From Lepraria neglecta (lineage: Eukaryota; Ascomycota; Lecanoromycetes; Lecanorales; Stereocaulaceae): a stretch of 64,000 bases of DNA. Position 1 is the first letter of the stretch. Every line of letters starts with the position of its first letter. Position numbers and translations under genes: made by a program. Below are positions 1 to 59,440 of this stretch, piece after piece. The stretch is from the NCBI GenBank assembly GCA_033220425.1, contig CM065650.1:1984001-2048000 (forward strand), read 5' to 3'. The notes beneath the pieces are model-generated. The model saw nothing but the letters and a program-made list of their open reading frames with translations, did no database searches and was not told the DNA's origin.

Positions 1-801
1 AGAAGGAGGCCGGCCTACGAGTAGATAAGAGTCTTTAGGAAGAGGATCGTATTATAGATATCGAAGAGTGGAGTGGGTCGGTGGAGAGGTACATCGCGCT
101 TTCCCAAAAGATTATGTTATTAGCGTCGCAGCTAGTTTTGCGCTATCAGCAGGCCGCATGGCGATCAGGGTCTGCATCCTATGTCGATTGCGGACCGAGA
201 AATCAGCCAAATCAGTAACTCGAGGTTGCCGACAGTAGTATCTGCAACCTCAAATTGCTGCGCTGGGCGCCTACAACATCAGCATCAAAAGTTGCTTTCG
301 TGGACCAACGCTACCATTGCGTATTTGTTCCGGAATGCGAAATATGTGCGCTTAGGTAGTATATCGACAACATTAGTAGATAAGAAGTCATCCGAGTCGG
401 ATAGTTCGGACACATCCTCCGCTGTAGTGGGTATATTCGAGTCGGACATCTTATCCAGAATTAACCTGCAGGCAGTATTATCCGAGCTAGGCAATTTTAA
501 AAGATAATGCGATAATCATTTTCATATTATACGTTCAATAGCTACATATTCGATTGCTGACAGCTTGATTCCGTCAGGCTTCCTCCCGCCCAAGCTTTAT
601 ACTCTATCGATCCATCCTCTATCCCCTCCGTAGTATCCTTAGTAGCCTAGTCCTCAGGTTCTTCTCCTATTGGAATAACATTCAGATATACTATTTTATC
701 CTCCATGATCCACCTCTCTACTAACCTACTCTACTCTTCGATGTCTATAATACGATCCTCTTCCTAAAGACTCTTATCTGCTCGTAGGCCGGCCTCCTTC
801 T
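1..801. repeat. Palindrome at window edge: 90 bp inverted arms around a 621 bp core
   Basis: Bases 1-90 are, with a few mismatches, the reverse complement of 712-801, and the core 91-711 between them is one copy of repeat E. The match runs to base 1, so the palindrome probably continues to the left of the window. The simplest reading is two oppositely oriented copies of the large element sharing one central repeat E, but only 90 bp of the left partner can be seen. Confidence 0.8.
92..711 (+). repeat. Repeat E, left copy (terminal repeat of the 17.8 kb unit)
   Basis: This ~620 bp repeat starts with CATCGCGCTTTCCCAAAAG directly after a TA dinucleotide and ends near CTCCATGATC. A second copy lies in opposite orientation at 17312-17930. 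Unlike the interior of the unit it keeps many CpA and TpG dinucleotides, so it is much less affected by RIP and looks younger. It carries a 108-codon open frame on the plus strand (181-507) with a Ser/Glu/Asp-rich stretch; its right-hand counterpart stays open for 175 codons. The peptide belongs to no family I recognise and may be incidental. Confidence 0.85.
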
Positions 802-859
802 GTATACGCTCGAAGTCCTATATTGAAAATACCTAGATATCTATTATCTCCGCTGAATT

Positions 860-3520
860 ATTACTAAAGGTAAGGGAAGCGAAAAAACTATCCTAGTTTC
901 TAAACTCTGAATTAGTCTTGTCGAGACCCTCCTCGGGAGATAGTTCTTTAGCCTTAATTTCAGTATTAGCCGATAATATATACCTATAATCGCTTCTTAT
1001 ATATACCGTATATTCTTTATTATTTCCGTACTCTTCTTCTTGGCCTATTATACTAGTATTATTTATTCCTATCTCCTCTAGAACGCTCTAAAGGTCCGGT
1101 TAATTTTTTAGATCTTCTAGGGAATCCTTAAACGTATTAGTAACTAGTAGTCGATAGTTCTTACTATACCTATTTATATAGTAGTAGTCTATTATTCGAT
1201 AATAAAGTAGTCCTGTAACTATCCGCGTTTTAATTTTACCTATATTATACTATACCTCTATTATATATTCGAATATAGCTTAAGGTATTATTAGTATATA
1301 GGTTATTCTTCAAGTATCAGGTTGACTTACTACTAACTAATATACTATCCTATCTCTTAATCCTATAGAAGCTATATTTATATTCTTCGAATATATAATA
1401 AAGCGCTATTATAACGAAAATAATAGTACTAGCAGGTAAAGGTTTCTATAGATCTATACTCTTATACCTGAGTCTAATAGCGCTTATTCTATTAGAAAAA
1501 AAACGCGATATAGACTTATTATAATTATTAGTACTAGAAAATAACCCTTATCTTAGACCTGTTAGCTATATATTTCATTCTCGTTTAGGAAAGAAGAATA
1601 CTTATACCTTTCTCTAGATCCGCGAAAGTAAATTATATATTAAATAGTAGGTTTAATATATTATTCTTCCGGTCCTCGACTATTAGGTATAGCTATTCTA
1701 CTACTATTTTAATAGTTAATCTTATTTTCCTTATTATAAAACTTCTAAATTCGCTTAGGCTATCTATAAGCTATAAAGATATTAGCTATTACGCGGTATT
1801 ATATAAATAGGTAGGGGTTTAGGAGTAATAACCTTACGAGCTTCTTTAGGAGTTAGTATATTACCTAAGGTATCTAGATTACCGATAACTTAAGGCCCCT
1901 TCGTTCTTTAGAGCTTAGCCTTCTATTCTCTCTATATTCTTATTATAAGGTTACTTAGAGCTACCGGGTTATATTCTAGCTATAGTAATAGGCTATTAGT
2001 ATTATTACTACCTATAATCTTAGAGAGGAATATAGGCTTCGTTATGTAGAAAATATATTAATATTCCTATAAGGATTAGTATCTTTGCGCTTGGCGACGC
2101 CTAGAACTACCCTAAGTAATAGGTCCCGCCGCCTCCTCCGTAGTTACCTCCTTATAGTCGTCTTTAGATTTAATATCTAATATATATATAGGTATAGGTA
2201 ACGAAGTTAATAATAGTCTAGGCCTTGTCTTTTTAGATAATAGAACCCGATTATTAGGATTAGATAATCGTCCTGTAGTCGCGGTACTGGAATTCGGCCG
2301 CTTGCGCCGTATAGGTAGTACGGTATAGGTTGGCTGTCGCTACTTATATTGTACCGACTATAACGATCAGTTATTATAAGACCTATATGCTAAGGTAAAT
2401 ATACTATTAATTTATCCTTCCGTCTGCTAATTAGATTCTCTCTCGATTTTCGATATTTCTTACTAGTAGATTTAAACTTATTAGTTATTATCTATTAGGG
2501 CGTCTAGGTAGGTTATCCGGTATACTAGCTATTCTGCTCTGTATATAAAGATATTCGGTTTCGTTGTTCCTATACTATCGGCTATTTCAGCTATATTTAA
2601 TAAATATATATCTCTAATTTATTATTTACCGAGCTGCGTAGGTAGTTCCTAGTATCTATATTCCCTTAAGGACCTCGTTTTATTATATAGTTCTATATTA
2701 TTTCCTTCTTTCTATATTAGCGTATTAAATATACATATAACATCGATAGGTAACTTACGGTCTTCTTTTAGGTAATACTCGTATTACTTTATAATACGGT
2801 ATTGATTCTAGATATTAACAGCTGCGTCTATTTACGCTGTACGGTGAATAGGTTATATCTATTATTATATACTAATTATACTTATAACAGAGAAGCCTAT
2901 CTTTTCTATCTCCTAAATATAGAGTTATCTAACAGACCGAATATAGGAGTATAGGGAAGTTATACCCCTATAACGATAGTAGGTACTAGTCTCTTTATAG
3001 GGCTGGTTATAGGGTTATTAGAAGATATTTTAATATCCTCAACGCTGGTTATCTTTAAAGAGACCTCTTCTTTATATATTTTTTTAGAGATATCCTTACT
3101 AAGGTTACTATTATATCTTCGACGTTTCCTAGGCTCTACTACTCCGTTATCCCCTTCGGTACTTCTCTTAGGTTCTAGCTACTTTTCTATAATAGCCTTA
3201 ATCTACTAATATATTAATATATAGAATAAGTTACTCGGTTCGAATCGTACCTTTCGCTTGTCCGCTTTGGTCTCCTAGGCTTTTCTAGTAGCTACTAGTC
3301 GTTCTCCCTTTATCTTAGCTATTATTAGAAGATCCCTATTATCTATCTAATATATATAAGGGTCTTTACTAGTAATAAGGTAGTATAAGGTATTAAGGAG
3401 TATGATCTACGATAATATAGCTAGTTATAGATAGCTAGATAGGCGAGGTTCTTAGGGGAAGAAGGCGAAGGTTTTCAGAAAGGGATAGGCTTCTTTAGTA
3501 TATTATTATTATATTATTTT
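860..3520 (-). pseudogene. Unrecognised RIP-degraded coding stretch
   Basis: On the minus strand this stretch keeps long runs of protein-like sequence broken by many stops of the CAG-to-TAG and CAA-to-TAA kind. A basic, glutamine-rich segment lies around 3100-3330. I find no catalytic motif and do not recognise the family. It lies downstream of the first SNF2-like relic on the same strand, so it may be a further cargo gene of the large element or the tail of another insertion. Almost no CpA or TpG remains here. Confidence 0.35.
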
Positions 3521-3799
3521 AATTAATATAATATTAATATAAAATCGAGTTAGCTTAAAGACTATTAATCGAGTTAGATAGAAACTTAGCTGAGTTAGAT
3601 AAAAGTCTATCCGAGTCGAACAAAATTTTCCTACCTTTTCGAATAGGTTACTACTAGGACTATATCTCTAGCTATAGTTCTCCTATATATAACGAATATT
3701 ACCGTTTCTTCTATATCCTCGACGAGTATATACCGCCTCTGCCCTATTAGCCCGGGACCTTAAGACCTTAGATACTACCTACTTAAGTATCTATCAATG

Positions 3800-6700
3800 A
3801 ATATATACAGAGCCGGACTTACCGGATTCGCTGTAGTATATTAATAATATATACTTTACCGCCGGCTCTTGAGTTATATAGGTAGGATATAGAGTTATAT
3901 TATCAGCTTAACTGATTAAATTAGTTCTTCGACTTAGTTAATAATAATTAGATACCTCTTTCTATTTATAATACGTCCTATAAAGAGAATCTCTACTAGT
4001 AGATATATATTGAGTTAGTAGAACTATATCCTCTATAGCGGTAACGGCGTTTAGATTTATTAGAGAAGACGAATCTAGGTTAGAAAAAGTAGCGGGTAGT
4101 ATTAGCTAGGTCTTTATAGCGGGATTCTAGGATATAAATATTATCTCAGTAACGTTAAGTTAAATAGTATAGTTTCTCTAGTCTCTAATTCGAATAACGA
4201 GGTCTACTATTTATAATATTTAAACTAGTCCTTAAATTTACTACTAGTAATACCTATAGGTTAATTCTATTATATTATACCTACTCTTACTAAGAGCTTT
4301 CTATCTACCTATCTAGATAATAATCGAATTAAGATCCCTTTGCCTTATCTAGAAATATACCGTACTTATATACCTTCTATCTTTACTATTACTACCGAAT
4401 AACCCGCCTATAGTATTAAATCCTATAGCACTTTATCTAGTCTATATCTATATTTATACTTCTAGAGGTATAGGTAAGGGTAATACCGGTTTTAAGAATG
4501 TAGTTCGTAGGGGGAACAAAGTGATAATAGTTATCTCCTTGGTATATCTGTACGAATAATTTATCTTGTTTCCCGGAAGGTAAGGCTAAGCTATACTATA
4601 GTTATTTATTAGGATAATACCTTTTAAACTACTAGAGTAAGGTTAGTATAAAGCTAAGACGAAATAGCGGAAGAGCTATAGACCTACTATCGCCAGAATA
4701 TATATAGTAGTAGATAGCTTAGTAATTATAGATAGTTATTACGGTCTTCCGACGATGTCCTCCCTTAGTTTAATAATTAAATCCTTCAATATAACTAACT
4801 TCGGACTATTATCAATAAAATATTCGATATAATAGATATAGATACTAGCTAGCGGGTATTTAGTCTAGTCTTCTCTTAGATTAGCTAACTCTATAAAGTT
4901 CGTGCAACCCTCGCCGCCGTTATATAAATCCCCCCTTCAAGCTTATCCGTATATAGAGATAGGTTATCAAGCCGAGCGAATCCTAGAAGGCTTAGGACTA
5001 TAGTAGCGGCGCGTAGTTTATATATATATTTGAAGTAGTTAGTAGTTATTAGCGCAGGTATCCTCTTGCTAGCCTTACAAGTAATTATATATTATCTAGT
5101 ATATTTTACTTTCGCTTCGTCTTAGATCCTTTAATTCTTAGCGCAAAGAGCTATATTTTATACTAGTAAAGGCGGGTATATAATATAACGAATCTTGTAG
5201 GGAGGTAGTTATACTAGATCGGTAGTCCCAGAGATATCTTGAGTATATAGCGTCCGCTTTATATTGATTATCTTCGTCTACTATTATAACTAATTGCCTA
5301 CTACTTTCGCTGGCACGATAGTAAGAATAATACCTGACTTTACTATACTAATATTCCGGGCGGCGCTGTTCTTGATATATAGATAACTAATATTCTATTT
5401 ATAAGCCGATAGATATATATTATAATAACTCCGTAGCTTTAATCTCTCTAGTAAGAGATACTTATTATAATAAGGCGACGTTTCGAATTATTAGATGATT
5501 TTGTATATATAGATTTCGATCTAGATAGAGTCGGATATTGGCGTTGCCTGAGTCGAATATCTATATTATCCGAGTCGACTAGAGTCCTTGATAGAAGTAA
5601 TAATTTAGTTTAGATATCCCTAAACTAGAATCTCGCCCGTAGATGGCTCCCCTCTATTAGAAAGCCTACTATCTTATCTAAGCTGCGTAGTATAGCTGAT
5701 AAATGAACGGTATAATCTTCTTTATTTTGCCGTTAGGGGCTATAATAGATAATAACCTATAGAGGTTTCGTATATTCTATATAGACTGGTTTCCCTTCTA
5801 TAGCTAAAATAATAACTCTATATACTACTACGTTTTCTGAGACTATTGCGGATAGTCCTCTACCTTAGTTATATTAATACTAGGGTAGTATTTAGTAGTA
5901 AGTAAATAGTAAGGTAGAGGTTAAAGTACTTATATCCTATTGTGATCCTCCTATTCTAATACCTCTAGATCTTTTATAGCTACTCTAGCTACTACTACCC
6001 TACCTATCTCGATATTATATAACCTCGGAACCCTACTATTATAAGCCTTACTAACCTTTAATACCTTCTCCTCGTCCTCTTCTATAGTATCCCCTTCCTC
6101 CTCTTACTCCTTCTCTTCCTAATTACTAGTATAGCTACTATTATTTATATCGGAACGGATAAGTATAGGATCGTTTAGAGGCCGGGTAGGAAATACTAGC
6201 AGGCTTACTTAATTAAGGGGGAGAATTTATAAGGCTTTAGGGCGGGGGATTTAGCGGGAGAGATAGTAGAGTCTTCGCGTAGAGGATTCTATATATTATA
6301 GGTTATATTCTTAGGTTATACTGTAAGAGAAGAATATCTAGCCCGGTAAGGTTATATAGAGGTATAATAGGGATAGTAATAATAGGAAGAATAAAATACG
6401 AAGAAGTAGAGGCCCTTCGCTAAGTTAGAACGAAGAAGAATACTAGAGTATATAATTTAGTAGTATCGGTGTACCGTAATTAACTAGGTTTACTAATATA
6501 CCGCGGAAACGGACGTAAGGTATACCTATTATTCAATATTTCACGCGGGCCTACCGTTTTACTAGAGTATAGTTAGTAGGAGCGCGATCGAAGTAAAGTA
6601 TAAGATATATACCTTATAGGCGCGTCTTAATATGAAACGAGATAGGATTCTCGCCTATATTATATATCTATAAGGTAGCCGCCTTGAATTTACGGGCGTA

Positions 6701-7260
6701 ATCAACTTTAATATCGTTTTTGCTAATATAATAAAGAATTCGGTCGGTCGAGCTATTATAGATACCGTCCTTATATAAGACCTCTTTAAATATTCTAAAT
6801 TCGATCTCGTCTAATATAATACTAGCTAGAGGTTTTTTCTCCTTAATAATATCGGAGGCAAAGAAAAGCGTATTTACTATTATCTCTATCGACCGGATAT
6901 AGAATCCTATTTTACTAAAGGTAAGCGGATACGCTATATATAGAGTACTATCTGTAGAGAGAGACGGTATAGTACGCCTTCTGCGATTACGATAGTAATT
7001 ATAGGTATTATTGATCTTTCTGGCTATACCTAATTTATAACTCTCCAGCTAGGGTTAGGGGATTCTAGGTATGAAAACGGAGGGAAATACTATTTCTAAC
7101 TGCTGTAAGGCCTTACTAAGCTTGGCCTAGTTCTCCGGTATCCCTAGAGACGTACTAACGATATATCTCCTTTCTATCTCTTTCTTTAATACTACTTGAA
7201 TCTCCTTATAGTAGGCCTATTTGACTATAAGGCTACGCGAAATAACTAAGACTGTCTAAT
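3800..7260 (-). pseudogene. SNF2-like helicase relic, copy A
   Basis: The minus strand keeps recognisable pieces of an SNF2-family ATPase: near 5290-5340 an ILTIVPAKVV-type segment, the usual hydrophobic strand ending in VPxxL/V of helicase motif Ia, and around 4700-4960 a segment matching the start of the C-terminal helicase lobe. A long amino-terminal region of unknown fold extends up to about 7260. SNF2 proteins are double-stranded-DNA translocases and chromatin remodellers; transposon-borne copies are known in fungi but their role in transposition is not established. The frame has many RIP-type stops, so the gene is dead. About 2 kb of it (4430-6330) is repeated in copy B. The Walker A and DExH boxes could not be placed with certainty. 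Confidence 0.5.
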
Positions 7261-7949
7261 TCCTAGGGTTAGTATTTTTATAGAATTCGGTAGAAGGTAA
7301 AGAGGCTAGAGAGGAGGGGGAAATACTAGCGGTAATAGCTGCGGGCTTATACTGGTATTCTATAGCGGGTATATATATAAGATATAGAGTATCGATCGAT
7401 ATATTAGTAGTAAGAGAAAGGAGTATAGGAAAGGATTAAAAGGTCGATATATAATATATAAAGAATAATTCCGTACTAAGCCTATAGTAATTAGCGTATA
7501 ATAAGCGATATCCGACTCGAATACTAAGTATATCAAGCGCTATTCGACTCGGATATTAAGAGTTATCCGACTCGAATACTATTTAATACTCAATATTGTT
7601 CGATACGTAGGCTGTTCCCTATATAGTATCTATATTAAGTATAGGTATAACTACTTGACTTTCGAGTAGGTTTCTCCCTTTATTTAATAATAGTCTTAGT
7701 TAAAAGAGTCTATATTAATAGAAGGGTATTATAAGGAAGATTATAACTTAAGATAATACGTTATAAAGGAGTATAGTAGTATATATAGTTCGTATTAAAT
7801 ACGATTATAATCTAGTAAGTTAGGGCTATAAATTATATTCCCTTTTACCTATAGCTTGTATTTAGTATATAAGTATATAGTATATCTAGATTTTGGTGGC
7901 GGATATTCAAGGAAGACTACAGCGCGAAATATCTACTAAAGATAGGAGA

Positions 7950-10900
7950 AAGTAAAGGGGAATAGCTAGTAATCTAAGTACTTTTAAGTCTTCCCGAACT
8001 AGTATAGATTAGATTTAATATTACTATAGAAGGGTAATAAGAGTCTTATATCTATCTTATACGAAGTTAAAGTACCGCCGAGTAGAAGAAAAGAAACCTG
8101 TAAAAGCGCGCTATTACTTAGCTAGAAATATCTAGCTTATTTATACGCCTATTACCTTGTTATATTATCTCTACTCTATTTAAATAATACCTTCTAATCT
8201 ACTCTATATTTATCGTCCGTAATAAAGTAGTAGTTATACATCTTTAGATTTCGCTGAGATAACCGAACTACCTACCTATCGTACTAAATATTATAGAATT
8301 ATATCTAGTCTATATCTATATTTATACTTCTGAATATATAGGTCAAGGTAATACTAGTTCTAAGGATATATTTCGTAGAGATAAGGAAGCGCTTATTATC
8401 CTCTTCTTAGAATAGCTATATATATAACTTATCTCGCTTCTCGGAAGGTACGGTCGAGCTATACTATAGCTATTTACTAGGAAAATGCTTTTTAAACTAC
8501 TAGAGTAAGGTTAGTATAAGGTTAAGGTAGAATAGCGGAAGAGATATAGACTTACTACCGCTAGAATATATACGATAATAGGAGAACTGGTAAATATAAC
8601 CAGTTTCTCTGGTTACCTATAGATATCTTCCCCTAGTAAGCCGATTAACTCTTTGAGTTTTACTAACTTCGGTGTATTACTAGTAAGTTCATCGATATAT
8701 TTAGTATAAATACTATCTAGCGGCATCTTGGCCTAATTCTATATCAGGCTAGCTAACTCTATAAAATCTATATAACCCTTTCCGCCGTTATATAAAGGCC
8801 CCTCTTTAAGCTCGTCCTAAGTAAGAGTAAGGTAGTTACGCCGAGAGAATTCTAGAAGGCTTAGGATAATAGTAGCAGCGCGTAGCTTATAGGCGCGTTT
8901 AAAGTAGTTATTAATCGCTAGCGTAGGTATCTCCTTGCCAGCCTTGCGAGTAATTATATATTCTCTAGTATATTCGGCTTTTACTATATCTTAGATCCTC
9001 TAATCCTTAGTACGAAGAGCTGCCTTTTACTCTAGATTAAGTAAGTATATAATATAACGAGTCTCGTGCGGAGGTAGCTTAATAAGCTCGGTAGTCCTAT
9101 TAATATCTATAGTTATAGGCGTCCGCTTAATTTTGATAGAGTTTAAGATAGCCTTTATATCTGCAATATTCTTATTATTCTTACTCTTATTAACCGGATT
9201 CTTTCGCTTTTAGTAGCTAGTAGTTAGTTTCCTAATAACCTCGACTTCGTTATAAGTTATATATTAATACTCTTTAACGGCGCACTACTAAGGCTACTCA
9301 ATTATATAGATTATAGCCGAGTAGTTAGTTAGGTCGCGTATCTACGGTATAGCGGAGAAACCCTATACCTAGGGTAAAGATAATCGGTATATTTTTATAC
9401 GCTGATTATCTATAGTATTCTACTCGTTCTCGTTATCCTCTAGTATTTTTACTAGGACTTAGGTACTAATCTTATCCTTAATACTAAGGACTATCTTAGG
9501 ATATTTACCCTTTACTATCCTTATCTTATAGAATTTATTAATAAAGATCTGGCCGATACGGAAGTTATAGACGAATAGAGACTTAGAGTCCTATAGTACT
9601 TCCTTAATATACCTATTATATAAGCCCTTAGTTATAAGGAGTAGAATACGCTCCTATCTAGGTTTAGGTTTTCTATCCTTTTTATATCGAAGTAGTTTAG
9701 TATTTTCCGATATAAGTAGGGTAGCGTTAATATTATTATATATTTTACCTATATAGGTATAGAAGCACCGTAGCTTCAATATTGGATATTAAGTATCGAT
9801 TATCTTCGTCCACTCTTGTAACTAGTTACCTATTACTTTCGCTGGTACGATAATAAGAATAATACCTTACTTCGGTACGCTAGTTAAATAGGCAGCGCTT
9901 TTCTCGATATACGGATAACCGATATCCTATTCATTAGTAGAGGGACATATATTATTACCGCTCTATACCTTTAATTTCGAGGGTAGGAGATACTTAGTAT
10001 AATAGATTGACGCTTTAAACTATTCGAGGTTTTTATAATCCTACTTATATATTTTAAAAACCTCGCGCTATCGTAAGGAGAGTTAATACTCGAGGATATA
10101 TATAATAAAAATCGTTAGAGTCTAGTTCGAGTCGGATATTAGTATTATCCGAGTTGATAGCAGGTTTTATTAAAAGCTAGGAATAGATACGAACCTTGCC
10201 AAAGCCGGGATCGTCCCTATTAATACCCCCCCTGCTAGTAAGCACACCGGTGTATCCAAGCAGCGCAGTAGAGTTGATGAATATATAGTATAATCTTTTT
10301 CATCTTGCCGTTAGGGGCTATAATAGATAATAACCTATAGAGGGTTCGTGTATTCTTAATAGACTAGTTTCCCTTCTACAGTTAGAATAATGACTCTATA
10401 TACTACTACGTTTTCTAAGACTATTGCGGACGGTCCTCTACCTTGGTTATATTAATACTAGGGTAGTATTTAGTAGTAAGCAAATAATAAGGCAGAGGCT
10501 AAAGCACTTACATCCTGTCGCGATCCTCCTATTCTAATACCTCTATATCTTTCGCAGCTACTCTGGCTACTACTACCCTACCTATCTCGATATTATATAA
10601 CCCTAGAGTCCTACCTATATAGGCCTTATTAATCTGTAACGCCTTCTACTCGTCCTTATCTATTAAATCCCCTTCCTTTCTATTATTCTCTTCCTTATTA
10701 TTTATACTACTACTACTATCCGAGCTAGAGCTAATATCTATAGGCTCCTTTAGATTCCCGGTAGACGGACTAGTATACTTATTAGTAAGAAGGGAAGGAT
10801 CGATAAAAGGCTTTAGGGTAGAGGGTTTAGTAGAAGAGGTAGCAGGGTCTTTACCTAGAGGATCCTATATATTAGAGGTTTTCTCTTTAGGTCCTGCCGT

Positions 10901-11800
10901 AAGAGAAGAATGTTTTAAGCGGTAGGAGAGGGTAAAACTACCTCGGTAAGGTTGATTTGGATAGGCCGTATTGCCCTCGATAGATACTATTACACCTGTC
11001 AGTTAATATCCTAACCATTGATTAACGTAGTATAACTAACGGAGTGCCCCTCGCACGATATAAAGCTCGTAGCGCCGGTAACCACGTAAATATATATCGC
11101 GGATGGCATTTTGTAGATCTTCGTTTGTAGTTACCTCTATAATCCTATTAGATATATAGATAAGGGTACTCCCCCAGGCATTATCTTCGGCGGTCTAGAA
11201 TTTCTTGGTTTCTAGGAACTGGATTAGAGTATTATAACTAAGTTAGTCCTAGAGCTAGTTAGTATTAGTAAGCGAAGTATTATATATAATATACCGTAGT
11301 TAGACAAGATAGAATTTATTATCGCGTATATAACCGATTCTAAGGATAATATAAGGCGGGTAGGTATCGTCTAGGGCTAGAGCTAGTATAAAGAATGGTC
11401 TAGTATAATCGGGTTACTTAGTATAGGTATTATCGTATCTAGGCTTTTTTGAACTAAACGAGTCGTGAGACTCCTCTAAGGGTCGTTTACTAGTATATCG
11501 GTTAGCTACTCTAGGTACTTCATTAAGTAGTCTTGCGAATATATATATTGCTTCGTCTCTGAAAGGTAGTATATAGTCGGGTAGAATAAAGTTAGTAGTA
11601 ACGGAGTTAAGGACCTTGGTAAAGTCCTAGCTAGAACCTCGAAGATTTTCGCCCTAAATAGCGGTACCCCGCAGGCGGTCTTTAAGTACTTGACGGAGGG
11701 TATTAAATAAGCTATTACTATACCGTAAGCCTCTACGGATATTGGGGAGGTTCTATAGGATTCCAGGCGGATTACTAGACTTTGGCCTGCCAATAAGCGT
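7950..11800 (-). pseudogene. SNF2-like helicase relic, copy B
   Basis: This is a paralogous copy of the preceding relic, on the same strand. The segment 8300-10900 aligns by eye with 4430-6330 but holds about 700 bp more between roughly 9120 and 9830. It shows the VPAKV-type motif followed by a Trp-Thr-Lys stretch (about 9800-9860) and, near 8570-8830, a segment ending in a Lys-Leu-Val-Ile-Phe-Thr core, as in the first strand of the SNF2 C-terminal lobe. Stops are fewer than in copy A: one frame is open for 95 codons at 11506-11793, and 9340-9830 reads nearly clean. The two copies imply a tandem gene duplication inside the element before RIP, or nesting of two related elements. Confidence 0.5.
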
Positions 11801-12639
11801 ATAGAAATTGGCCTCGGTTAGCGCAGGCTCTAGCGTTATATCGACCTGAGGGTCGATTAGAGAAGGACCGGCTATATTAGATGATATTATAGATAATTCT
11901 AACGCGTCTATAATAAGAAGAATAATAATAGGACGAATAAAATAGGGAGAAGTTAAGGATTCTTCGCTGAGTTAGAGGGATAAAGCAGGTAATACGACTA
12001 GTAGAGTCTATACCGGGTTTTTATTTATAATAGCGATTAGTCGGTAGTTAGTAAATATAATGCCAGTAAGGTAAATACGTTACGAAATAGTTTAATACTT
12101 AATACAATTGGGCGATATAGACCCTTCTCTATAGAATAGTACGTCGGAGTAGTTATAAGTAGGTAAGTTTAGCTATCGAAAGATTAAAAGCAGCGAGCTT
12201 TAATATAATAGATGAAGATATTGATTAAAAGCGGAACTTATATATATATAGTATATAGAAAGCGAATAGCTGATTTTAAATATACTATATCTAGCTTATA
12301 CTTAATACCTAATATCTAGTAAAGATAGAGTATTAAAACTTATTATCTACTTATAAAGATTAATTAGATTTCTTCTTCCGTTCTTCGAAATATAAGTCTT
12401 AATCAAGTACTCTATTATAAAAATAATCTAAGTTCGACTCAGATATATATTTTAGTAATAAAGGCATATACTATAAGGTTTATAACTAATTATATTTCCT
12501 AATAAGATAAGTAACCGAGGTATTTATTAAATATATTATATAGAAAGAAAATCCCCTTAAACTATCTATTAATCAATGCCTTCTACAGGATGATACTCTA
12601 CTATATATATATTATAATTTAATTGATAGTAATAGTTAA

Positions 12640-15080
12640 AAATAGGCTATATAAGGCGACGTAAGGATAGATTTATCCTAACCTATAGCGAGTTAGCTTA
12701 AAGGATCTAGTAGTGAATATATTTACTGATACCTGCCTAGACGCGTTGATCTTGATAATAATACCTCTATATTACGCCTGAGCTAGATGGATCGACAGTG
12801 TAAACGTTACTAGAAGTAGTATAGCAGCGGAAGCGGCCTAACTAGGCATCTACCACGCTGTAAGGGCCGGGACCCCAATTGGACGCGTAGGAGACAGGTA
12901 CGCCTTAATAAAGATAAAGTTGAGGGCCCTATTTATAAACGCTAAAGAGACGAGGTTAACGTAATTAGCGATAGTCCCCGTGAGGGCGAAGGTAGATGAG
13001 TCCCCTAGGAGGACCTAACTATTTTAATAGATAATAATGCTCTAGGGCGATTACTTAAACTCACCGACTCTACTAACAAGATCTAGCACCAGTAAGATAA
13101 GCTAGATATAGTACTTAATCAATCGAAGTCGATAACGGCGTCAAGTACTATAGGTACTATCTCTACCTTGACCGTTAGCTCTATAGAGTACTACCTATAG
13201 GAGCGAGGTACCGGGAGGCCTTTAGAGGAAGAGGACATAACCCTAGCCGAGTTATTGTCTATACCCCTGTCCGAGTCGATGTCCGAGTTGATACCCGAGT
13301 CGAACCCGGACTGGCACCCTTTCTATTTAGAAGCTGATTATACCCTAGCTTTATAGATATATAACACCCGACTATCTAGCGGTATAATAGACAATTTCTT
13401 CAAAGATACTTGATTACGACCTTTCTACGGACCCTATAGCTTTAATAGCGCTCTATAACTAAAAGCCAAGCTATATACTATAAAGTATTCTGCTGCTGCT
13501 AGTAGATAGTCTCGGTAAGCATTTAGTATCCTATCGATTCAACCGGACGAGACGACTAGAATATATTATATACTCTACTTCGATATAATAGGTATAATAC
13601 GAACTCTTATCGGATATAAACCTTTTAATTCGAGTATTAACTATATACCGATACGCCAGCGAAACCTCGACGGGGGTCTAATCGTTAGTAAGATATATAT
13701 AGCCCGCTAGTGGTAGGAGATACAAGATAAGCTCCCTAATGGCTTAATAGTAGTACCGGTTATAATATTATTAGATAAGACCTATTTATTACGGATACAC
13801 GGAGATTAATAGGCGTAGCCAGTCTATATTACTATCGGTAACCTCGATCGAGGTATTCGGCGGGTACAGGTTCGGCCGGGGATAATATTGCTTAGACTAG
13901 TACTATTAGTCTATAATAGTATGAAAGCCGAGGTATATTACTACGCTATAGGGCTTATAGTCGAGGGTAAGCCGGCCGAAATACGGATCTTACTTAATAT
14001 ACTAATAATATTCTTTTAAAGTACTTAAGGAGCTGGCGCCGAAGGGGATCCTTATTATATATATAGACGGATAAATATAACGATACTACCTAATACTCGT
14101 GTCTATACTAGGCGACTACGAGGAACAAGTTTTAATAACCTCGATCAAGAGCGGTAAATACTATCCGGTCTACTTAGTACCGCTAAATAAATAGGAACGA
14201 CTATATCCTGAAAAACTATATCTAAAGCGAATACCTGAATAGACTATAGAGTAGTTATAGATATAAAAAACGTACGATAAGAATACGCCCAGGGTGTTAC
14301 TAGATATAATAGTATATAACCGACCCAACTTTACAGACGGCTACTTCGTAGTTAACGTCTACTAACTATAGATATTTAATATATTATACTAATTAATGGT
14401 TAAAGGGCTATTAAACTACCTCCTAGACTGGCTTAGGGAGTATATCGGAGAGGGACGAATAAAGCTTGAGGTACAAGCCTTAATCGACGCCCGGTTTCGA
14501 GCTATACCTAAATTTACTAAGCTAAGGCGATTTCGGGAGTTTAGTAAGCTAAGCTAATAGATAGGAGAGGAGAGTAAAGAGATATTATAGATTATAATAC
14601 CCGTCTTCGCTCCTCTATTATCCGAAAAAAACCTAGATATACTATATATAGGACGAGCTATCGTTAACTTTATTATACTTATAAGATACCGATCCTACGA
14701 CGAAGCGATACTAGAATATATAAATATAGCGTTAGAAAGGATTAATCTACTTAAGGAGGTATTTCGAAAATATAGGCCAGTCAATAAGAAAACGGGCGAG
14801 CAAACTTTTAACTTTCCCAAATTCTATAGTATCAGTTATTATATTAATATGATTAGATACTATAGTCCGCTAGATAGATATAGCACCTAAGCCTCGGAAA
14901 GGGCACATCCGATATTACTAAAGAATTACTATAACTGAACAAATAAGTATAAGGATTACTAGGAGTAATTAATAGAATATAACGAACGCTATATCAAGTT
15001 AATAATTATACGGGATATTAAAAATTTCTAAGAGACGGAGCCTATATTACTTAGTTAGAGAAGAAAACAAGAAGACAAGA
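12640..15080 (+). pseudogene. Plavaka-type (CACTA-like) transposase relic
   Basis: The plus strand shows the hallmark block of fungal Plavaka transposases: a Leu-Leu-Asp-Lys-Thr stretch (about 13770) followed by a Pro-Val-Tyr-Ile-Thr-Ile-Gly-Asn-Leu segment with paired arginines about six residues on (13817-13865), and a later block whose residues resemble the conserved DILHQLLKG region, ending KGLLNYLLDWL (about 14370-14430). Plavaka enzymes are DDE-type cut-and-paste transposases. A less mutated part at about 12700-13000 encodes an upstream stretch of unclear role, and an acidic linker at 13255-13310 carries the GAGTCGA motif. More than twenty RIP-type stops (TAG and TAA for Gln or Trp) kill the frame. 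The family assignment rests on motif memory, not a search. Confidence 0.65.
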
Positions 15081-16130
15081 AAAGTATAAAGGCCGGGGTC
15101 CTTCTAGATCTATACTAACTAGGATAGCGAGTAGACACGGAAGAGTGCTATATATTAAGACACCTATATAAATATAATAGTTATTACTAGTAAACGGCGA
15201 GAGATATAGCTGAATGGCTAAATATAGCTAGGTTTCTCTAAAGCCTGGCTGCGTTTCTTAAGGCGTACTAAGCGAAAACGCTAAGCAGAGGTAGTATAAC
15301 CTCGAACCTAGATATCGATAGAAGGGAGGCAGACTGCAGCTGGGTTGAGAGCTACCCGGTCTATATCTATTCGGGCCTCGTATATTAGAAGACTACCGGA
15401 GAGGACTCCTCTAATTTAGGACGTCTCTATAAGGATTTGGTGGTCTGCAGACCTTATAAACATTCGTAGTATTTTACCTAGCGTAGAGATTGTGTATAGG
15501 TCCGAGAATAAGACTATAAGAGTCGAAACCCGGAAACTATACAGGAGGGAAAGTTAGTCGGTAAGGTCTTAGTCGTCGTAGAGGTAAAGGATCTTAGTAA
15601 TAGGGACTTTAAGCAACGACCTACTCGTATATAGACTGCCCTTATAGAAGTCTTTGATTATTAATATCTAGGGTAGGTACAAGACTACTATAGAATGGTC
15701 GAAGTTAAAAAGGCACGGGTGTCGCTTATACTTAATCCTCGAACGATAGGCGCTCGCCGCTTCTATAGACTACTAAATATCGAGCGAAGTACTTATCTAG
15801 TACTAGGAACGGTTAGAGGAAAAGAGATATTCTATATTAATAGTTTCATCGACTAGGAATAATATACTACGATATATCACCCTAAATTCCTAATAAACAA
15901 TTCTAAGGCAGCGCGACGAATCTACGCCAAATTCCTACTAAATCCTTCTTAGGCAATACTATAAACCTAAGTAAAAACCCTTAAAAGGAAGAGAGATAAT
16001 ACTATAAATATATCTGGGTCGATAGAGCAGAAGAGACGCTGCTACTGACTACCCTCGCCGTATCTAAAGTTAAGGCTTTAGTCTTAAGGAAAACCTCTAA
16101 TATAAAGAACTAACCTATAGTTTTAATTAC
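15080..16130 (+). pseudogene. Degraded coding stretch 3' of the Plavaka relic
   Basis: Protein-like plus-strand sequence continues past the transposase core, with several stretches open for 40-70 codons between RIP-type stops. It could be the carboxy-terminal part of the transposase or a separate small gene. No catalytic motif was recognised. Confidence 0.35.
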
Positions 16131-16439
16131 TATAGCGGTATTAATCCTCTCTTCGGCATATTTAATTATAGCTATATTATATTAGTAGGCTATATAGTAT
16201 CTTACGCGTATAATATTTACTTGCTTTAGTATCAAGTCTACGGCCCTCGTACGTTACTAATATTCGGGTACTTCGGTAAGCTGAGGAGTAGGGAGGTTAT
16301 TAAGCTCGCGGTATCGTATATAAAGTCTATCGGGGAAGACAGGGAGTAAATTCGTCGGATATTGAGTATCTATAGTAATACTTTGCTGAAATAATAGCGA
16401 CGAGACCGCAAACTACGAGAAGAAATATTAAGAAACGTC

Positions 16440-16566
16440 TAGCCAAATATTCATCCGACTCGGACAGGGTAAACCCGAGTTAGACACCACTCGGACAGTG
16501 TAAAACCTGAGTTAGATACTACTCGGACAGTATAAAACCCGAGTCGGATACCAATCGGACAAGGGC
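16440..16566. repeat. ~31 bp minisatellite of CTCGGACAG/CCGAGT units, about four copies
   Basis: Four imperfect units containing ACTCGGACAGT followed by AAAACCCGAGTTAGATAC stand in tandem. The same GAGTCGGA-type core recurs in clusters elsewhere in the large unit (about 390, 3570, 5520, 7510, 10120, 13260 and 17570). Confidence 0.75.
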
Positions 16567-17029
16567 AAAAAAGGGCGAAATACATACGCCCCTGATCTAC
16601 TAGAGTTTTGCTAGGTGCCGCTGACAGTTCGGTAACTAGGCGTCGTAACTCTCTATCTTAGTTATTTACTCGAATTATAAGGAGTAGAAGATATAGTCGG
16701 ATTGGCGGATAATAGGTTGTTATAGAATCGAGGAAAGCGTGGTTAAATAACCCGTGAAGAAGTTGAAGAAGGATTAGTATAAGCGCGAGTTAAACTTGTA
16801 TTAATATTACTGATAACGAGCTTTTATATACTAAAGGAGCTGTCGGCAGTAGCTATATTTCTAACAGATTATACATATAGAAGACTTTATTTAGATTCGA
16901 CTACCTACTTACACCTTGTATAGAAGATATACAGCTACTAATTAGTAGAAATGTATAGACTATATAAGAAGTAATTAATCATAATAAAAGAAAACTGGCA
17001 GCTGTATATTAGCAGCGTTGTATTATTGA

Positions 17030-17260
17030 TTGAGCTAATAGCTGGCTGAACGTATAATGGATATACTGATTGGTTAGACATTACACTGACAGTAACATCT
17101 AATTGCTGATTGGTTATACATTATACTAACAGCAATATCTAATTGCTAACTGACCTAACATCGTTAAATCAGCAGTATTGAGTTACAGATCGAGCTGATT
17201 TGATGCTGTCAGCAATATTGAGTTGCTGATTCCGCTGAACGTAACTGTCAGCCCTACCGG
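17030..17260. repeat. Subterminal tandem repeats with CAGCAATATTGAGTTGCTGA-type units
   Basis: Direct imperfect repeats of a TTGCTGATTGG..ACATTA unit and of a TCAGCAATATTGAGTTGCTGA-type unit lie just inside the right end of the large unit. CpA and TpG are frequent here, in contrast to the RIP-saturated interior. Position and form resemble the subterminal repeats that CACTA-type transposases bind, which is an inference. Confidence 0.6.
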
Positions 17261-17311
17261 CGCGCTCGGCAACTCGGGATTTCCCAGCAACTTTTGGGAA
17301 AGCGCGATGTA

Positions 17312-17931
17312 GATCATGGAGGATAAAATAGTATATCTGAATGTTGTTCTAATAGGAGAAGAACCTGAGGACTAGGCTGCTGAGGATACTGCGGAGGGGA
17401 TAGAGGATGGATCGATAGAGTATAAAGCTTAGGCGGGAGGAAGCCTGACGGAATCAAGCTGTCAGCAATCGAATATGTAGCTATTGAACGTATAATATAA
17501 AAATGATTATCGTATTGTCTTTTAAAATTGCCTAGCTCGGATAATACTGCCTGCAGGTTAATTCTGGATAAGATATCCGACTCGAATATACCCACTACAG
17601 CGGAGGATGTGTCCGAACTGTCCGACTCGGATGACTTCTCATCTACTAATATTGTCGATGTACTACCTAAGCGCACATGTTTCGTATTCCGGAACAAATG
17701 CGCAATGGTGGCGTTGGTCCACGAAAGCAACTTTTGATACTGATGTTGTAGGCGCCTAGCGCAGTAATTTGAGGTTGCAGATGCTGCTGTCGGCAACCTC
17801 GAGTTGCTGATTTGGCTGATTTCTCGGTCCGCAATCGACATGGGATGCAGACCCTGATCGCCATGCGGCCTGCTGATAGCGCAAAACTAGCTGCGACGCT
17901 AATGACATAATCTTTTGGGAAAGCGCGATGT
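17312..17931 (-). repeat. Repeat E, right copy, inverted relative to the left copy
   Basis: This copy ends at GGGAAAGCGCGATG followed by TA. Its minus strand carries a 175-codon open frame (17314-17841), whose first ~108 codons match the frame in the left copy closely. At 17291-17311 the terminal sequence CTTTTGGGAAAGCGCGATGTA is repeated, so E is flanked by two direct copies of its own end. Confidence 0.85.
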
Positions 17932-18005
17932 AATACTTCGCTTACTAATACTAACTAGCTCTAGGACTAACTTAGTTACGATACTCTAATCTAGTTCCTA
18001 GTGTT

Positions 18006-19557
18006 GAATTATAAGCTTATCTATAGCTTTATATAATGGCAACGGTTTTGGCATATATGAGAGCTGGCTATGTAAACAGCTCTAGGATGCAGAAATAATC
18101 TTTGAAGCTTTACATGGTTCGGATGGTTCCAGGATACTGACCGCCATATCGCCATGTGCGAATAGACAATCCAGCGCCATATCGCCATGTGCGAATAGGC
18201 AATCCACCGCCATATCGCCATCTGCGAATGAGCAATCCGGTGCCATATCGCTATGTGCGAATAGGCAATCCGGTGCCATATCGCCATGAGCAGAATGGGC
18301 AATCATGTAGACCGTGCGGTACGCTTGTCTCATGCCTCATGCGATACGCCTTGTATCATGTTTTATGCGATACGCTTGTTTCATGCGAGGGCTTGGCAAT
18401 GGAGCATATATATAGAGTTCTGCACTAAGGAGAACTCACCAAGTCAAATATTCATCTTCAGGGTATTTTATTTGCTTCGCTCTGACATCGACGAGCTTAG
18501 TACTATTTCATCTTCCACTACCTTTCTAGCTCTGCTTAGTCAGTATAACCCAACCTGCGCGAACAAGTAGACTGCTCTATAATCCTCTCCAGCTCTTCTA
18601 GTTAATAGTATTGGAAAGATTTCAAAAACGCAGGCCACCTTAGGGTATACTGATAAAGTAGAGCTAGAAAGGTAATAGATAGATAAGGACAATAAGAACC
18701 GATACATCAGAGCGAAGCAAATAGTAGGATATCCAATATCGATCAATTGAAATACCCTGAAGATTAATATTTAACTTAGTGAGCTTTTCTAGGTACAGAG
18801 ACTCCTGTATATACTCTATAGTCAAGCCCTCGTATAAAACAGGCTTTTCGCATGAAAAGCATGAAACAAGCGTATCGCATAAAACATGATACAAGGCGTA
18901 TCGCATGAAGCATGAGACAGGCGTACCGCACGGTCTACATGATTGCCCATTCTGCTCATGGCGATATGGCGGCGGATTGCTCATTCGATATGGTATACAC
19001 CGCCTATGATGCACATGGCGATATGGCGATGGATTGCCTATTCGATAGATTGCCTATTCGATGGATTGCCTATTCGCAGATGGCGATATGGCGGCGGATT
19101 ATTCATTCGCAGATGGCGATATGGCATACACTGCCTATGATGCACATGGCGATATGGCGATGGATTGCCTATTCGACACATGGCGATATGGCACCGGATT
19201 GCTCATTCGACAGATGGTGAGATGGCACCGGATGGCTCATTCGCAGATGGCGATATGGCCTATGATGCACATGGCGATATGGCGGCGGATTGCCTATCCG
19301 CACATGGCGATATGGTGATAGATTGCCTATTCGACACATGGTGATATGGCACCGGATTGCCTATTCGCAGATGGCGATATGGCGGCAGGTTGCCTGTTCG
19401 CACATGGCGATATGGCGGTCAGTATCCTGGAACCATCCGAACCATGTAAAGCTTCAAAGATTACTTCTGCATCCCAGAGCTGTCTTCATAGCCAGCTCTC
19501 ATATATACCAAAACCGTTGCCATTATATAAAGCTATAGATAAGCTTATAATTCAACA
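18006..19557. repeat. 1.55 kb imperfect palindrome (two inverted copies of one repeat)
   Basis: The left arm (about 18006-18560) and right arm (about 18620-19557) are reverse complements, both ending in TGTTGAATTATAAGC at the outer tips. The right arm is ~370 bp longer because its internal minisatellite has expanded. The short centre (about 18570-18608) is not palindromic and matches the Fot1/pogo family seen at 55571-55604. The right arm (18609-19557) is flanked by the pentamer AATAG on both sides (18604-18608 and 19558-19562), and the outside sequence resumes the Fot1-like copy, so it looks inserted into that relic. Confidence 0.8.
18950..19425. repeat. ~33 bp minisatellite of CACATGGCGATATGGC units
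   Basis: About a dozen imperfect units built on ATGGCGATATGGCNNCGGATTGCCTATTCG stand in tandem. Four to five units in inverse orientation are present in the left arm (18150-18300). The several 60-116 codon open frames here are by-products of the repeat. Confidence 0.85.
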
Positions 19558-19838
19558 AATAGGGCTCTATTTATATCATTCTAGGCTTCATAATTAAAGT
19601 CTACGTAAAGGTACTTAGATAGCCTACTAGATATTCGGGGTAACTGAGGATAGGTCGGTAGGTAGGGAGGCGACGGTAGGCTCGATAGTAGGGTCGGTAG
19701 TAGGTAGAGATGAGGTGATAGGCTCGGTCGGCGATATATTTGGACGTATTATTGTTGCAGAAAGGGTTTAAAACGTAAAAAACGCTCAGACCTCAGCCCT
19801 ATAGGGCTGATTGATTGGGTAGGGTGATCGGCAATAAT
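19558..19838 (-). mobile_element. Truncated Fot1/pogo-family copy
   Basis: This piece matches 55604-56030 of the full-length Fot1/pogo element, including the subterminal block with CAGCCCTATAGGGCTGA and about two units of the 30 bp minisatellite (against six or seven in the other copy). It stops short of the outer terminal repeat. A ~34 bp upstream piece lies at 18575-18608 on the far side of the inserted right palindrome arm. This is a plain DNA-transposon fragment at the edge of the gene island. Confidence 0.75.
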
Positions 19839-33578: not shown

Positions 33579-36500
33579 TTATCCAGAAGCATCAGCATTG
33601 AACGAGAGACCGGTCTCGGTATTCACAAGACGCTCAAACGCTTCCGCAGTCTGAACACCATTCCGTTGTCTAACAATATCGAGCGGCGTGCGGCCCTCCC
33701 AGTCCATGATAGTAGGAGAAGCCCGTCGTTCCATTAACAGCTTGACCAGCTCCGTAGGTGTAGAATCCCTCCAAGCCGGTGCAAAGTCCCTCGCAACGAC
33801 TATCAGAGGCGTCCTCCTCTGCCCTGTCATATTAGGATCAGCCCCAGCATCGAGAAGCATGCGGGACAAGGACAGCGTCTCCCCGGCCTCCCGCCGATGT
33901 TCTATAGTCCGCGTTAGAGGCGTGCTGCCTTCCGAACTCACGGTGTTGACAAGAGCACCCATCTTGATGAGTTTTTCGACCGCGCGCTCGTGCGCAGCTG
34001 ATGCAGCTGCACTGAGAGGAGTTTGACCCTTGAAATCTCTAGCGTCCACAAAAGATTTGGCGTCCAAAAGCATTTCAATCACAACCTCATGACCCCCCTC
34101 TGCGGCCCACCATAGAGGCGTCCGGCGATGCATATCTTCGGAATTGGTAGCAGCTCCTCTCTTGATTAGCACTCTGACTAGCGCCTCGTGTCCGTTGCCT
34201 GCAGCTGCCGAAAGCGGTGTCCTGCCAGATCCATCTTTGGATTCGATGTCAGCCCCTTGTCTGATCAATTGCTCAACTATAGCATTGTGACCAAAATAAC
34301 ATGCCAGATTGAGCGGCTCGGCTTTCGAGACAGGTCTTACGGAAGGCCGAGTGGCCCTGTAGATGTTGTACCATGTGTTGAAACGCTTGGAGTGGGTGTC
34401 ACAGATATACAACCAGGATTGTGATGCTTCGTCATCTTCCTTGCTGATGCTGAAATGCCAAGTCCAGTATTGTGCTGCATAGTCAATGAAGTCATGTTCT
34501 CGGATGTATGATAGTCTTTCGGCCGCATAGATGTAGTCACTCTTTATGACCATGGGCTCGGCTTCGAACATGGAAAATGAAAGGTAGCGAAGGCATGCTT
34601 TCGCAAGGACAAGATGTGAATCAAGAGGATCCAGCGAGACCTTCCAGCCTTTATGGCCCAGCTGAGGCTTTGTGGTCGACGGACCTTGCTGAAGAACCAG
34701 AAAATCCTTTGCTGTTTGGTGAAGAAGGTAGACCTTGGAATCATGAATGCTGACCAAAAGGCCGCAAAGGTTTTTGATGTATGTTCGAAAAGCTACTTCG
34801 GAATCAAGGTCCACTTCTTCGCGCGACTGATGGCATGCTTCAATGTTGAGGGCCATGTTCATTTCACGCAAGCTAAGAGGCCGTACAGCAGCAACGACGA
34901 TATGGAGTAATTTCATCGCCCGTCCAGGCTGTGGGCTTCGATCCAGCATAGCTTCGTAAGCATCATAGATTGTGTTTGGCATCTTCTCAATATATTCTTC
35001 CATCCTCTTTGGGGTACCAATTCCAAAGCCTTTCTCTACGCCCGCAAGCGTGAGATACAACCAGAGGTAAGTCCGGTTCTCCGTTCCCAGAAGACGGTCT
35101 TGGAGGAACATCTGCGTTTTTTGGTCGAACTTCTTTCTGGACGCAAGCTGCGCGACGCTGTCCACGATGACAAGGTCGATCTCTTTCTTTATCAGTTCAG
35201 ACTCATCCTCACCAGCGAGACGTATGGTGAACTCGTCAAAAAGCTCTTCAATATTGTAGTATGGGCGGCTAGTAACAAGGAACTTCAATTGGCAGTTGCT
35301 TTGGCCCTGAGTACCGTAAAAGCTATTCAAAGACTTGATCAAGGCTTGTTTTCCATTCTCTTCGCATTCATCGAGAGCATCCAGAACGCATATGACTTTA
35401 CCTGCTTCGGGACATTGGGCGATCTCCACGAGCAGCCGCCATAGGCTCGACAGAGACTGGATCAATCGCCTGCCATCGTTACGATAAGCGTCCATTATTT
35501 TCTGTAGCAGTGTACGATTTTGGCGGCATAGCTGATGCAATAGAGCGCATACAGCATTCGTCGGACTTCTTTGTTCTGGGCTCTCGTCCTTGAAGAAGAA
35601 ATAGCATGTCACGTGCGATGTCGTGCTTCGAAGCTCACCATCGACGAGCGACTTTGCTAGGACTGACTTTCCACAGCCTGGATCTGCGGTTACCCACAGT
35701 AGGCTCGAGCAAGGTTCTTCTCGCCACCGATCGTACTTGTCGTTTTCTAGGAACCAACGGCAAGTGCCCGGCACTCTCCTAGGATTTCGGTCTTTGTGGT
35801 CCTCATAGGTTGAAGTGCGCAGAGCCTGCAGACATGCGGCTTCCTCATCAGTCTGTGTCCAATCAATATTCCCAGGTTGACCTAAGGCCGTGAAGGAAGT
35901 TTGGACAGTCTGTCGTAGACTATGGTAGTGTTTCTCTTGCATGGAATAAAACTCACGCATGCGACGATCTTGCTCCTTCAGAGCAGTATCCAATCGCTCT
36001 GAATGAACGACTTGAGATGTGTATTGGCATGCTATCTCTGAGTTTTTCATGTCAGCAAGTAGTGCTGCCCAGTCATCCGCCTTGAGAACGTCTCGTCCGA
36101 ACCGGACTATCGTGGATCGTCGAAGCTGGCACACGACCTGAGCCTGATACCCAAGGATCTGCGAATATAGCTTCGTCACCTGCCTCTCAAACAAAGTATT
36201 GAGCTCGGTAAGGCCGCCTGTACTAAGTACCCTAGAAGGCTCTGTCTCCTGCTGACGGTAGACACGCTCAATAACAGTGAAGCGAACGATAAGGGAGGAG
36301 ATATAATCAAGGCCTTCCATAAGGGCTTTCTGTTGAATTGTAGGATGCAAAAGCAGTGGGAGGAGCATGCACACTCCAGCCCATGCCAGCGCAGCATGTG
36401 GCTCTGTGCCTACTGCCGAGGAGACGAAGTCCTTCCCAAATAATACAGCCTTCACAATTCGGTCCAGCTGCGCTTTCACCTCAACGGTCTTATCACCAAG

Positions 36501-55900: not shown

Positions 55901-55905
55901 ATAGG
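55690..55905 (-). repeat. 30 bp minisatellite in the transposase N terminus
   Basis: Six to seven units of a 30 bp repeat (core GTAGGCTCGGTGGTAGG) encode a PTTEPTVAS-type decapeptide on the minus strand. The truncated copy at 19.6 kb has about two units, so copy number varies within the family. Confidence 0.88.
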
Positions 55906-56236
55906 CTCGGTCGGCGATATATTTGGACGTATTATTGTTGCAGAAAGGGGTTAAAACGTCGATTTCTGCAAAGACAGAAAAAATGTTCAGATCTCAGCCC
56001 TATAGGGCTGATCGGTTGGATAGGGTGATCGGCTGGGGGGTGAACCCTTCTATCGTAGATCCGAAAAACCTGTTATAGCGTGGTTTTTTAGTTATCGATT
56101 GGCGCGCGCACACACCAAAATCTGAACAAAGTCGGCTTTTTACTAGATCTCCATCACCAGTAGTCAGAATCGTTCCTAAATGGGCAAAAGTGAAGCTCTT
56201 GGCATAGTGTTGCTTTTGCCCCCATAAACGGAGCTC

Positions 56237-58899: not shown

Positions 58900-59440
58900 T
58901 CTCGTCCCGAGAAACCATCCATCCTTCATACCACCTATTCGTACTAAACGATTATCTAACCCAGCCATCCGTTCGAAGGAGCTAGCCAGTAAACTTTCCG
59001 ACTTCGTTATAAGACCCTATTCCCGTTGCGTCGCCGGTGGCAAGCAGTATCTTATAGGTACTAATTCTAATAGATATTCGAGTTATATTACTAGTAGTAG
59101 GAAGTGCGACCTTATAGTGTCGCCCCTTGAAATACGTCGTATTAAGAAACGGTATAACGAACTGCGTAAAGAAATTACCGATACGCTTGCGAAGCTAGTA
59201 CGCCTCTAGGTATAGTTAAACTCTATTAAGAAAGAGAAGAAGAATATAGTAGACCGAGAATTACAGAACATAAAGGAATTAGAGGAGGACTAATACGTTA
59301 CTCCTAAGCTAAACGACCTAATGTTTAACGTCTTATCCGAGTAGTTCGATCTCCCCGACAGGATAGAAATCCCCGAGAGCTTCGACTAGTCTTCTCTTAT
59401 CTCCGATGAAACTCTTATAGGTATTCCCCGCAATTCCCCG
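58900..59440 (+). other. Degraded coiled-coil-like coding stretch inside the Gypsy fossil
   Basis: Between the candidate terminal repeat and the pol relic the opposite strand shows degraded protein-like sequence rich in Lys, Glu and Leu, with a coiled-coil look. It may be an antisense accessory frame or an older fragment. Family not recognised. Confidence 0.3.

Follow-up and report, generated by a model that had tools for sequence, protein, structure and literature searches.

The window analyzed here, a 64,000-nucleotide stretch of the Lepraria neglecta genome (part of contig CM065650.1, here C5, positions 1,984,001 to 2,048,000), contains at positions 92–17309 a Plavaka-type transposon of 17,218 bp, element A. 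Our interpretation, to which we assign a probability of about 0.78, is that element A belongs to a family of 17.2-kb cut-and-paste DNA transposons in which the relic of a Plavaka transposase on the plus strand moves together with gene relics on the minus strand, two of them putatively SNF2-like. Searches for related copies covered a genome of 42.0 Mb in 11 contigs. The features of the element are as follows.

92–17309, plus strand: element A, delimited by the alignment of nine of ten other copies and by shared ends.
90–91, no strand: left target-site duplication, TA, from equal flanks.
17310–17311, no strand: right target-site duplication, TA, from equal flanks.
92–110, plus strand: left terminal inverted repeat, 19 bp, common to the copies (148 genome occurrences against 0 for a control).
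17291–17309, minus strand: right terminal inverted repeat, 19 bp, common to the copies and supported by the genome pattern count.
13003–15990, plus strand, outer limits approximate: Plavaka transposase relic, with PF18759 at 13543–13893 and 14015–14434.
4347–6348, minus strand: probable SNF2-like relic A (SNF2-A), without the Walker-A lysine and without about 663 bp holding motif II (or gained by B).
8155–12007, minus strand: probable SNF2-like relic B (SNF2-B), motif I at about 10177–10230, motifs V–VI at 8155–8463.
767–3346, minus strand, limits approximate: relics of one or more further genes in several open pieces, four of which are conserved in the four copies compared.
6617–7435, minus strand: relic of gene X, about 270–300 aa.

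From the left end, the minus-strand order is thus the 767–3346 region, SNF2-A, gene X, and SNF2-B. The 767–3346 relics returned no Pfam match over the cut-off, and gene X returned no Pfam match.

The limits of element A were established against ten further copies (c02–c11, 20 kb each), the next ten by score among 39 full-length left-end matches. Nine of these align with the window from positions 85–93 to 17308–17321 at 91–93% identity; the tenth, c07, is interrupted by insertions, and its right end lies beyond the fetched 20 kb. The terminal inverted repeat is 19 bp long, with a left end of CATCGCGCTTTCCCAAAAG and a right end of CTTTTGGGAAAGCGCGATG; the two are mutually complementary and read CATCG..CGATG, an arrangement of the CA..TG type. 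CTTTTGGGAAAGCGCGATG terminates the window copy and nine of the ten other copies, with the final base altered in one. With at most one mismatch allowed, the genome holds 148 occurrences of the 19-bp end and 0 of a reversed-pattern control. The 2-bp flanks are identical in 9 of the 11 copies for which both ends were read: TA in the window copy, c02, c03, and a sister element, B, described below; TT in c04, c06, and c11; and CA in c05 and c08. If the first element base of c09 is counted as mutated, its flanks are also equal (AA), bringing the count to 10 of 11. Because these copies and the short derivatives described below show TA, TT, CA, AG, and AA, the target duplication is 2 bp long and not TA-specific. 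The left 500 bp of the element (within the window 92–710 region) is its most GC-rich 500-bp stretch (mean GC 0.46) and holds 75 variable transition sites, fewer than every other full 500-bp stretch except one; a stop-free frame of 123–168 aa is kept at this end in 6 of 11 copies.

That the parts of the element travel together is indicated by their repeated co-occurrence. Results of three DNA searches, using the left end (39 full hits), the SNF2-B region (at least 40 places), and the right end (at least 40 places), were combined with genome matches to the Plavaka model, and all resulting counts are lower bounds. Among the at least 39 left ends, 19 meet a right end at 17.1–17.4 kb, and 31 of 39 (from the best 40 of 118 candidates scored) have the three other parts, namely SNF2-B, Plavaka, and the right end, on their own strand at no more than 45 kb; two left ends on contig C3 have one right end in common. 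At 38 of the 40 places scored, a Plavaka match follows SNF2-B within 40 kb, and at 28 of these 40 the distance between them is 5,315–5,401 bp. A same-strand Plavaka match within 6 kb of SNF2-B was observed at 31 of 40 places, as compared with a mean of 0.18 and a maximum of 3 under random placement (1000 trials, contig C7 left out). A protein-level search using part of SNF2-B returned 110 matches, which were sorted by hand into 44 places for B and 44 for A, with some places matching in two pieces; SNF2-A lies 3.5–4.3 kb from SNF2-B at 30 of 44 places. A protein search aimed at a host relative of SNF2-B gave matches that were assignable to the element. Copies are spread over at least seven contigs. 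The proposal of a first-pass annotation of this DNA that Plavaka and two SNF2-like relics form one mobile unit is thereby borne out, both by whole-element alignments and by the constant spacing of 5,315–5,401 bp in 28 of 40 places.

The identity of the transposase, also proposed in that annotation, is supported by a PF18759 match of 59.7 bits on the plus strand of the window copy (13543–13893; cut-off 26.3). A second stretch at 14015–14434 scores 24.7 bits, slightly below this cut-off. At the place of the presumed C(2)C motif, which was chosen by eye, all 10 copies have Tyr-x-x-Tyr; repeat-induced point mutation (RIP) would yield Tyr from Cys. Searching the genome with the Plavaka model gave 84 matches, of which 58, mostly first-half matches, were used. 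No SNF2-like relic occurs within 10 kb at 17 of the 23 Plavaka places unpaired with a left end.

The minus-strand relics A and B are probably SNF2-like, judging from motif order and weak profile similarity. In the best-preserved copies, SNF2-B carries colinear blocks on one strand, DDPGFGK, IVPAKVIGNW, NEFH, TGITLTRT, and RVVRLSQRNPK, which we take to be motifs I, Ia, II, V, and VI, respectively. The Walker-A lysine of B is encoded by AAG in 10 of 10 copies, and the aligned position of A reads ATA or ATG in 10 of 10. The two paralogues share 37–82% protein identity in pieces and 74–85% DNA identity. The spacing between their repeat blocks shifts from 3,869 to 4,532, a difference of 663 bp or 221 codons, so that a segment of this length was either lost from A or gained by B; the segment contains motif II of B. 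Beyond about position 11020, SNF2-B continues as either an N-terminal extension or a separate gene. When a 104-aa piece of B free of stops was queried against the PDB, its best match was 1z5z, an SNF2/Rad54 helicase (E 0.0046). Among the 14 chains listed under E 1 for this piece, 11 are SNF2-family by name, with the ATRX, ISWI, RAD26, and Chd1 chains counted as members of that family; another is called "DNA repair protein." For a profile built from four host SNF2 genes, the five top-scoring stretches all fall on the correct strand, three of them at motifs V–VI (E 0.037–0.092); as the best shuffled stretch reached E 1.2, only these three stand out. Profile–profile comparison with hhalign gave P 0.0064 for motifs V–VI and 0.036 for motif Ia, compared with 0.42–0.71 for reversed controls.

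Nearly all divergence among the copies appears to be the product of RIP, acting on sequences that would have been near-identical when hit. Over the 45 pairs of 10 full copies, transitions affect 7.0% of sites and transversions 0.084%, a ratio of 83; of 1,576 C/T sites, 905 are CpA and 574 CpG. The low transversion divergence (0.084%) suggests a recent spread followed by disabling through RIP. The longest stop-free frame in 11 copies is 216 aa, and therefore none of the 11 examined copies is intact. The family also includes short elements resembling miniature inverted-repeat transposable elements (557–617 bp), which have the same 19-bp ends and were found at five of eight isolated ends fetched (L047, L048, L050, L051, and L052). 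Their flanks are equal in 5 of 5 cases (TA, AG, TT, AA, and AA), and they resemble the large element only in the outer 115–156 bp on the left and about 60–90 bp on the right. The remaining ends, L045, L046, and L049, showed no second end within 1.4 kb.

Element A itself lies within a nest of related copies. The features adjoining it are the following.

1–89, minus strand: interior of element B, which continues upstream of the window, where an inverted copy lies.
17312–17930, minus strand: left end of element B, 619 bp, separated from the remaining B by A (alignment, empty-site test).
17931–17932, no strand: target-site duplication TA of B, from its flanks.
17933–18001, minus strand: fragment of a third copy, C, the target of B (repeat search, empty-site test).

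A repeat search of the window recovers inverted arms of about 620 bp at 90–716 and 17306–17932 that are 96% identical, and the first-pass annotation had read these as the TA-flanked ends of a unit of about 17.8 kb reaching to 17931. The arms exist, but they are not termini: nine copies end at the position of 17309, where the unit stops, and 17312–17930 is the inverted left end of B. Likewise, TA is indeed the target duplication of the window copy, but it is not a fixed target, since TT or CA takes its place in others. An inverted copy of 712–10798 (94.8% identical) fills the 10 kb upstream of the window, and the left arm consequently lies between two inverted element interiors. In silico excision of A with one TA joins the flanks into 1,011 gap-free columns, 96% identical to the left part of A and 94% to c02; A landed 619 bp into the left end of its inverted sister, B. 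The right end of B is at C5:1967490 (L040), so that B without A measures about 17.2 kb. Joining the flanks of B rebuilds C over 133 bases without a gap, at an identity of 95% to A and 89% to c02. The 620-bp arms are a three-level nesting scar, with A in B and B in C. As for the check that had been suggested, a search for empty sites with a single TA, removal of A restores B and removal of B restores C, both without gaps. An element of 17.8 kb with 620-bp inverted-repeat ends flanked by TA is accordingly a vanishingly improbable description of this locus. It accounts for the presence of two arms that are 96% complementary, but nine of the ten other copies stop at a 19-bp end matching window position 17309, none of these nine has a second 620-bp arm, and removal of 92–17309 rebuilds B. 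Terminal repeats of 620 bp were therefore rejected, as copy alignments, copy ends, and the empty-site test all give 19-bp ends.

Several observations weigh against the interpretation of element A as a Plavaka transposon with SNF2-like cargo. The curated model PF00176 matches neither the window (at E 0.001) nor any of ten pieces (at E 10), and no Pfam helicase appears in the ten pieces or, when stops are written as X, in the window element and the first 13.5 kb of c06 (the least mutated copy). The scans of the window element and of c06 identified Plavaka only, together with a sub-threshold DUF6532 (E 0.17, in c06); for the ten pieces, searched up to E 10, every match fell below the cut-off, the families being Plavaka and four others that were taken as chance. 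A 171-aa piece of SNF2-B retrieved nothing from the PDB, the relic profiles A1–A3 found no significant SNF2 match there, and hhalign with profile A2, from the same 171-aa piece, was null (P 0.23). The two motif-Ia matches of the host SNF2 profile (E 2 and 2.5) do not surpass the best shuffled stretch. Within the motifs of B, the Walker-A block reads GKV and not the usual GKT, the frame ahead of its lysine is shifted by a run of G in 5 of 10 copies, and motif II has N in 10 of 10 copies (RIP could have altered D) and H in only 2 of 10. At the level of the element, 8 of the 39 left ends are without at least one part, and 7 of the 31 complete sets span more than 20 kb, in which case the parts possibly come from neighbouring copies. 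The flanks of c10 are unequal (CT/TA). Finally, every copy seen is disrupted, so that open frames do not reveal function.

These data bear on three further explanations. One is that the minus-strand relics belong to another protein family with a chance resemblance to SNF2 motifs. The absent Pfam match, the weak or null PDB results for one piece and for three profiles, and the motif-Ia matches at shuffle level would fit such a family; nonetheless, we judge it improbable, as motifs I, Ia, II, V, and VI are colinear on one strand in the best-preserved copies and SNF2 proteins head the matches in both database and profile comparisons. The report of two SNF2-like helicase relics in the first-pass annotation therefore stands in part: two paralogous minus-strand relics are present and the motif reading is plausible, but no curated model (PF00176) matches. 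Alternatively, the SNF2-like genes might derive from a separate mobile element or a host segment, caught once in a founder Plavaka and carried since as a role-less passenger. We regard this as unlikely, though somewhat less so than a chance resemblance. In its favor, six Plavaka places (L010, L012, L013, L015, L017, and L019), which by DNA represent other Plavaka families, have no SNF2-like relic within 33 kb, the nearest being 33.8 kb away, and the evidence base is one family in one genome. Five of these six show 21–35% protein identity where compared, and L015 gave no match; the 19-bp ends of element A were not found in the fetched flanks of the six. Against a passenger origin, the 110 protein matches, sorted into 44 B and 44 A places, include no independent mobile form of the SNF2-like relics, and a second paralogue and two further gene regions lie in the same unit. 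The last explanation, in which segmental duplication or recombination and not transposition spread the unit, could draw on the fact that certain copies are close together or inverted, as in the window. It is nevertheless highly improbable given the sharp common ends, the 2-bp flank duplications, the empty sites, the distribution over at least seven contigs, and the short derivatives with the same ends.

Under the preferred reading of element A as a mobile Plavaka unit with SNF2-like cargo, the Plavaka transposase would have acted on the 19-bp ends, moving both the whole unit and its short derivatives. SNF2-B may have served as an ATP-driven remodeller, either opening silenced chromatin or aiding access of the transposase to the ends, a role like that proposed for TET/JBP cargo in other fungal transposons; SNF2-A, which has neither motif II nor the Walker lysine, may have been a non-catalytic partner or a decaying duplicate. 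Copies would then have spread recently before RIP disabled them. A tentative extension of this reading, which we consider less likely than the mobile unit itself by a wide measure, is that this Plavaka lineage possessed its own remodelling pair, a catalytic SNF2 protein and an ATPase-dead paralogue, opening silenced chromatin for its own expression and transposition as an ATP-driven counterpart of TET/JBP.

Large cargo-bearing mobile units of ascomycetes include the Starships, which have a tyrosine recombinase captain; element A differs from these in its Plavaka transposase and inverted-repeat ends. Closer resemblance is found with PlavakaB (CMCT clade), described in the accessible part of PMC12730594 (Kojima 2025) as having termini of 5'-CATCA..TGATG-3', duplications of 2–3 bp, and, in some families, an extra non-transposase gene, including TET/JBP cargo. 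Element A has in common with PlavakaB the Plavaka transposase, CATC..GATG termini, a 2-bp duplication, and additional genes, but it has CATCG and not CATCA, is 17.2 kb long, carries two putative SNF2-like genes and two further gene regions, and is heavily affected by RIP; as CATCG..CGATG is one base off CATCA..TGATG, it is not classed as PlavakaB here. Fungal DNA transposons with TET/JBP genes likewise carry a putative chromatin- or DNA-modification gene as cargo (PMC12730594, in the portion available), whereas the cargo of element A is helicase-like. PF12851 (TET/JBP) had no match in the genome, although control genomes gave none either. In the accessible text of PMC12730594, the word "helicase" appears once and "SNF2" never. 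VANDAL elements of Arabidopsis, according to the available portion of PMC10398659, carry VANC, a sequence-specific anti-silencing protein; the likeness to a transposon-borne anti-silencing protein is a proposed analogy only, as VANC is not an SNF2 ATPase. Large insertions in Fusarium graminearum are predicted to code for an SNF2 helicase-like protein, and the word Plavaka is absent from the accessible text (PMC11152077). TET/JBP cargo on Plavaka has thus already been published, and SNF2 cargo appears to be the new aspect: no earlier report of it on Plavaka, KDZ, or CACTA transposons was found in the open-access literature, with subscription papers mostly outside the search.

The surroundings of the element include other repeats. 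The stretch at 18002–19557 (1,556 bp) is an inverted-repeat element whose arms measure 223 bp and which contains minisatellite units of 33 bp; matches to its first 129 bp occur at no fewer than 40 genome places (best 40 of 150 candidates scored), and the flanks of c05–c08 also match parts of it. When copy flanks were compared with the window flanks, a dispersed minisatellite repeat was the sole shared sequence. The transposon cluster adjoins a gene-rich segment encoding a NACHT NTPase with ankyrin repeats (33582–36815, minus strand; NLR-like, 1078 aa). An Spt20 gene was also identified, and genes of this kind, like the RIP-type mutation, are in keeping with a filamentous ascomycete. Both borders of this segment have a repeat in common (19656–19832 with 55839–56033), and a 30-bp tandem repeat occupies 55664–55941. 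A second RIP-type AT-rich repeat region follows at 59001–64000, parts of which match a stretch of c07 and a flank of c09. Searches of the window for tRNA genes and Rfam families returned nothing.

The copy number, fixed gene order, and clear ends of this family make it readily searchable in other species, and it poses a testable question, namely whether the remodeller is needed for transposition. If DNA transposons do carry SNF2-type remodellers, the finding may bear on the Fusarium graminearum insertions predicted to encode an SNF2 helicase-like protein (PMC11152077, accessible portion). It would also mean that the self-defence of such elements against silencing extends beyond acting on DNA methylation.

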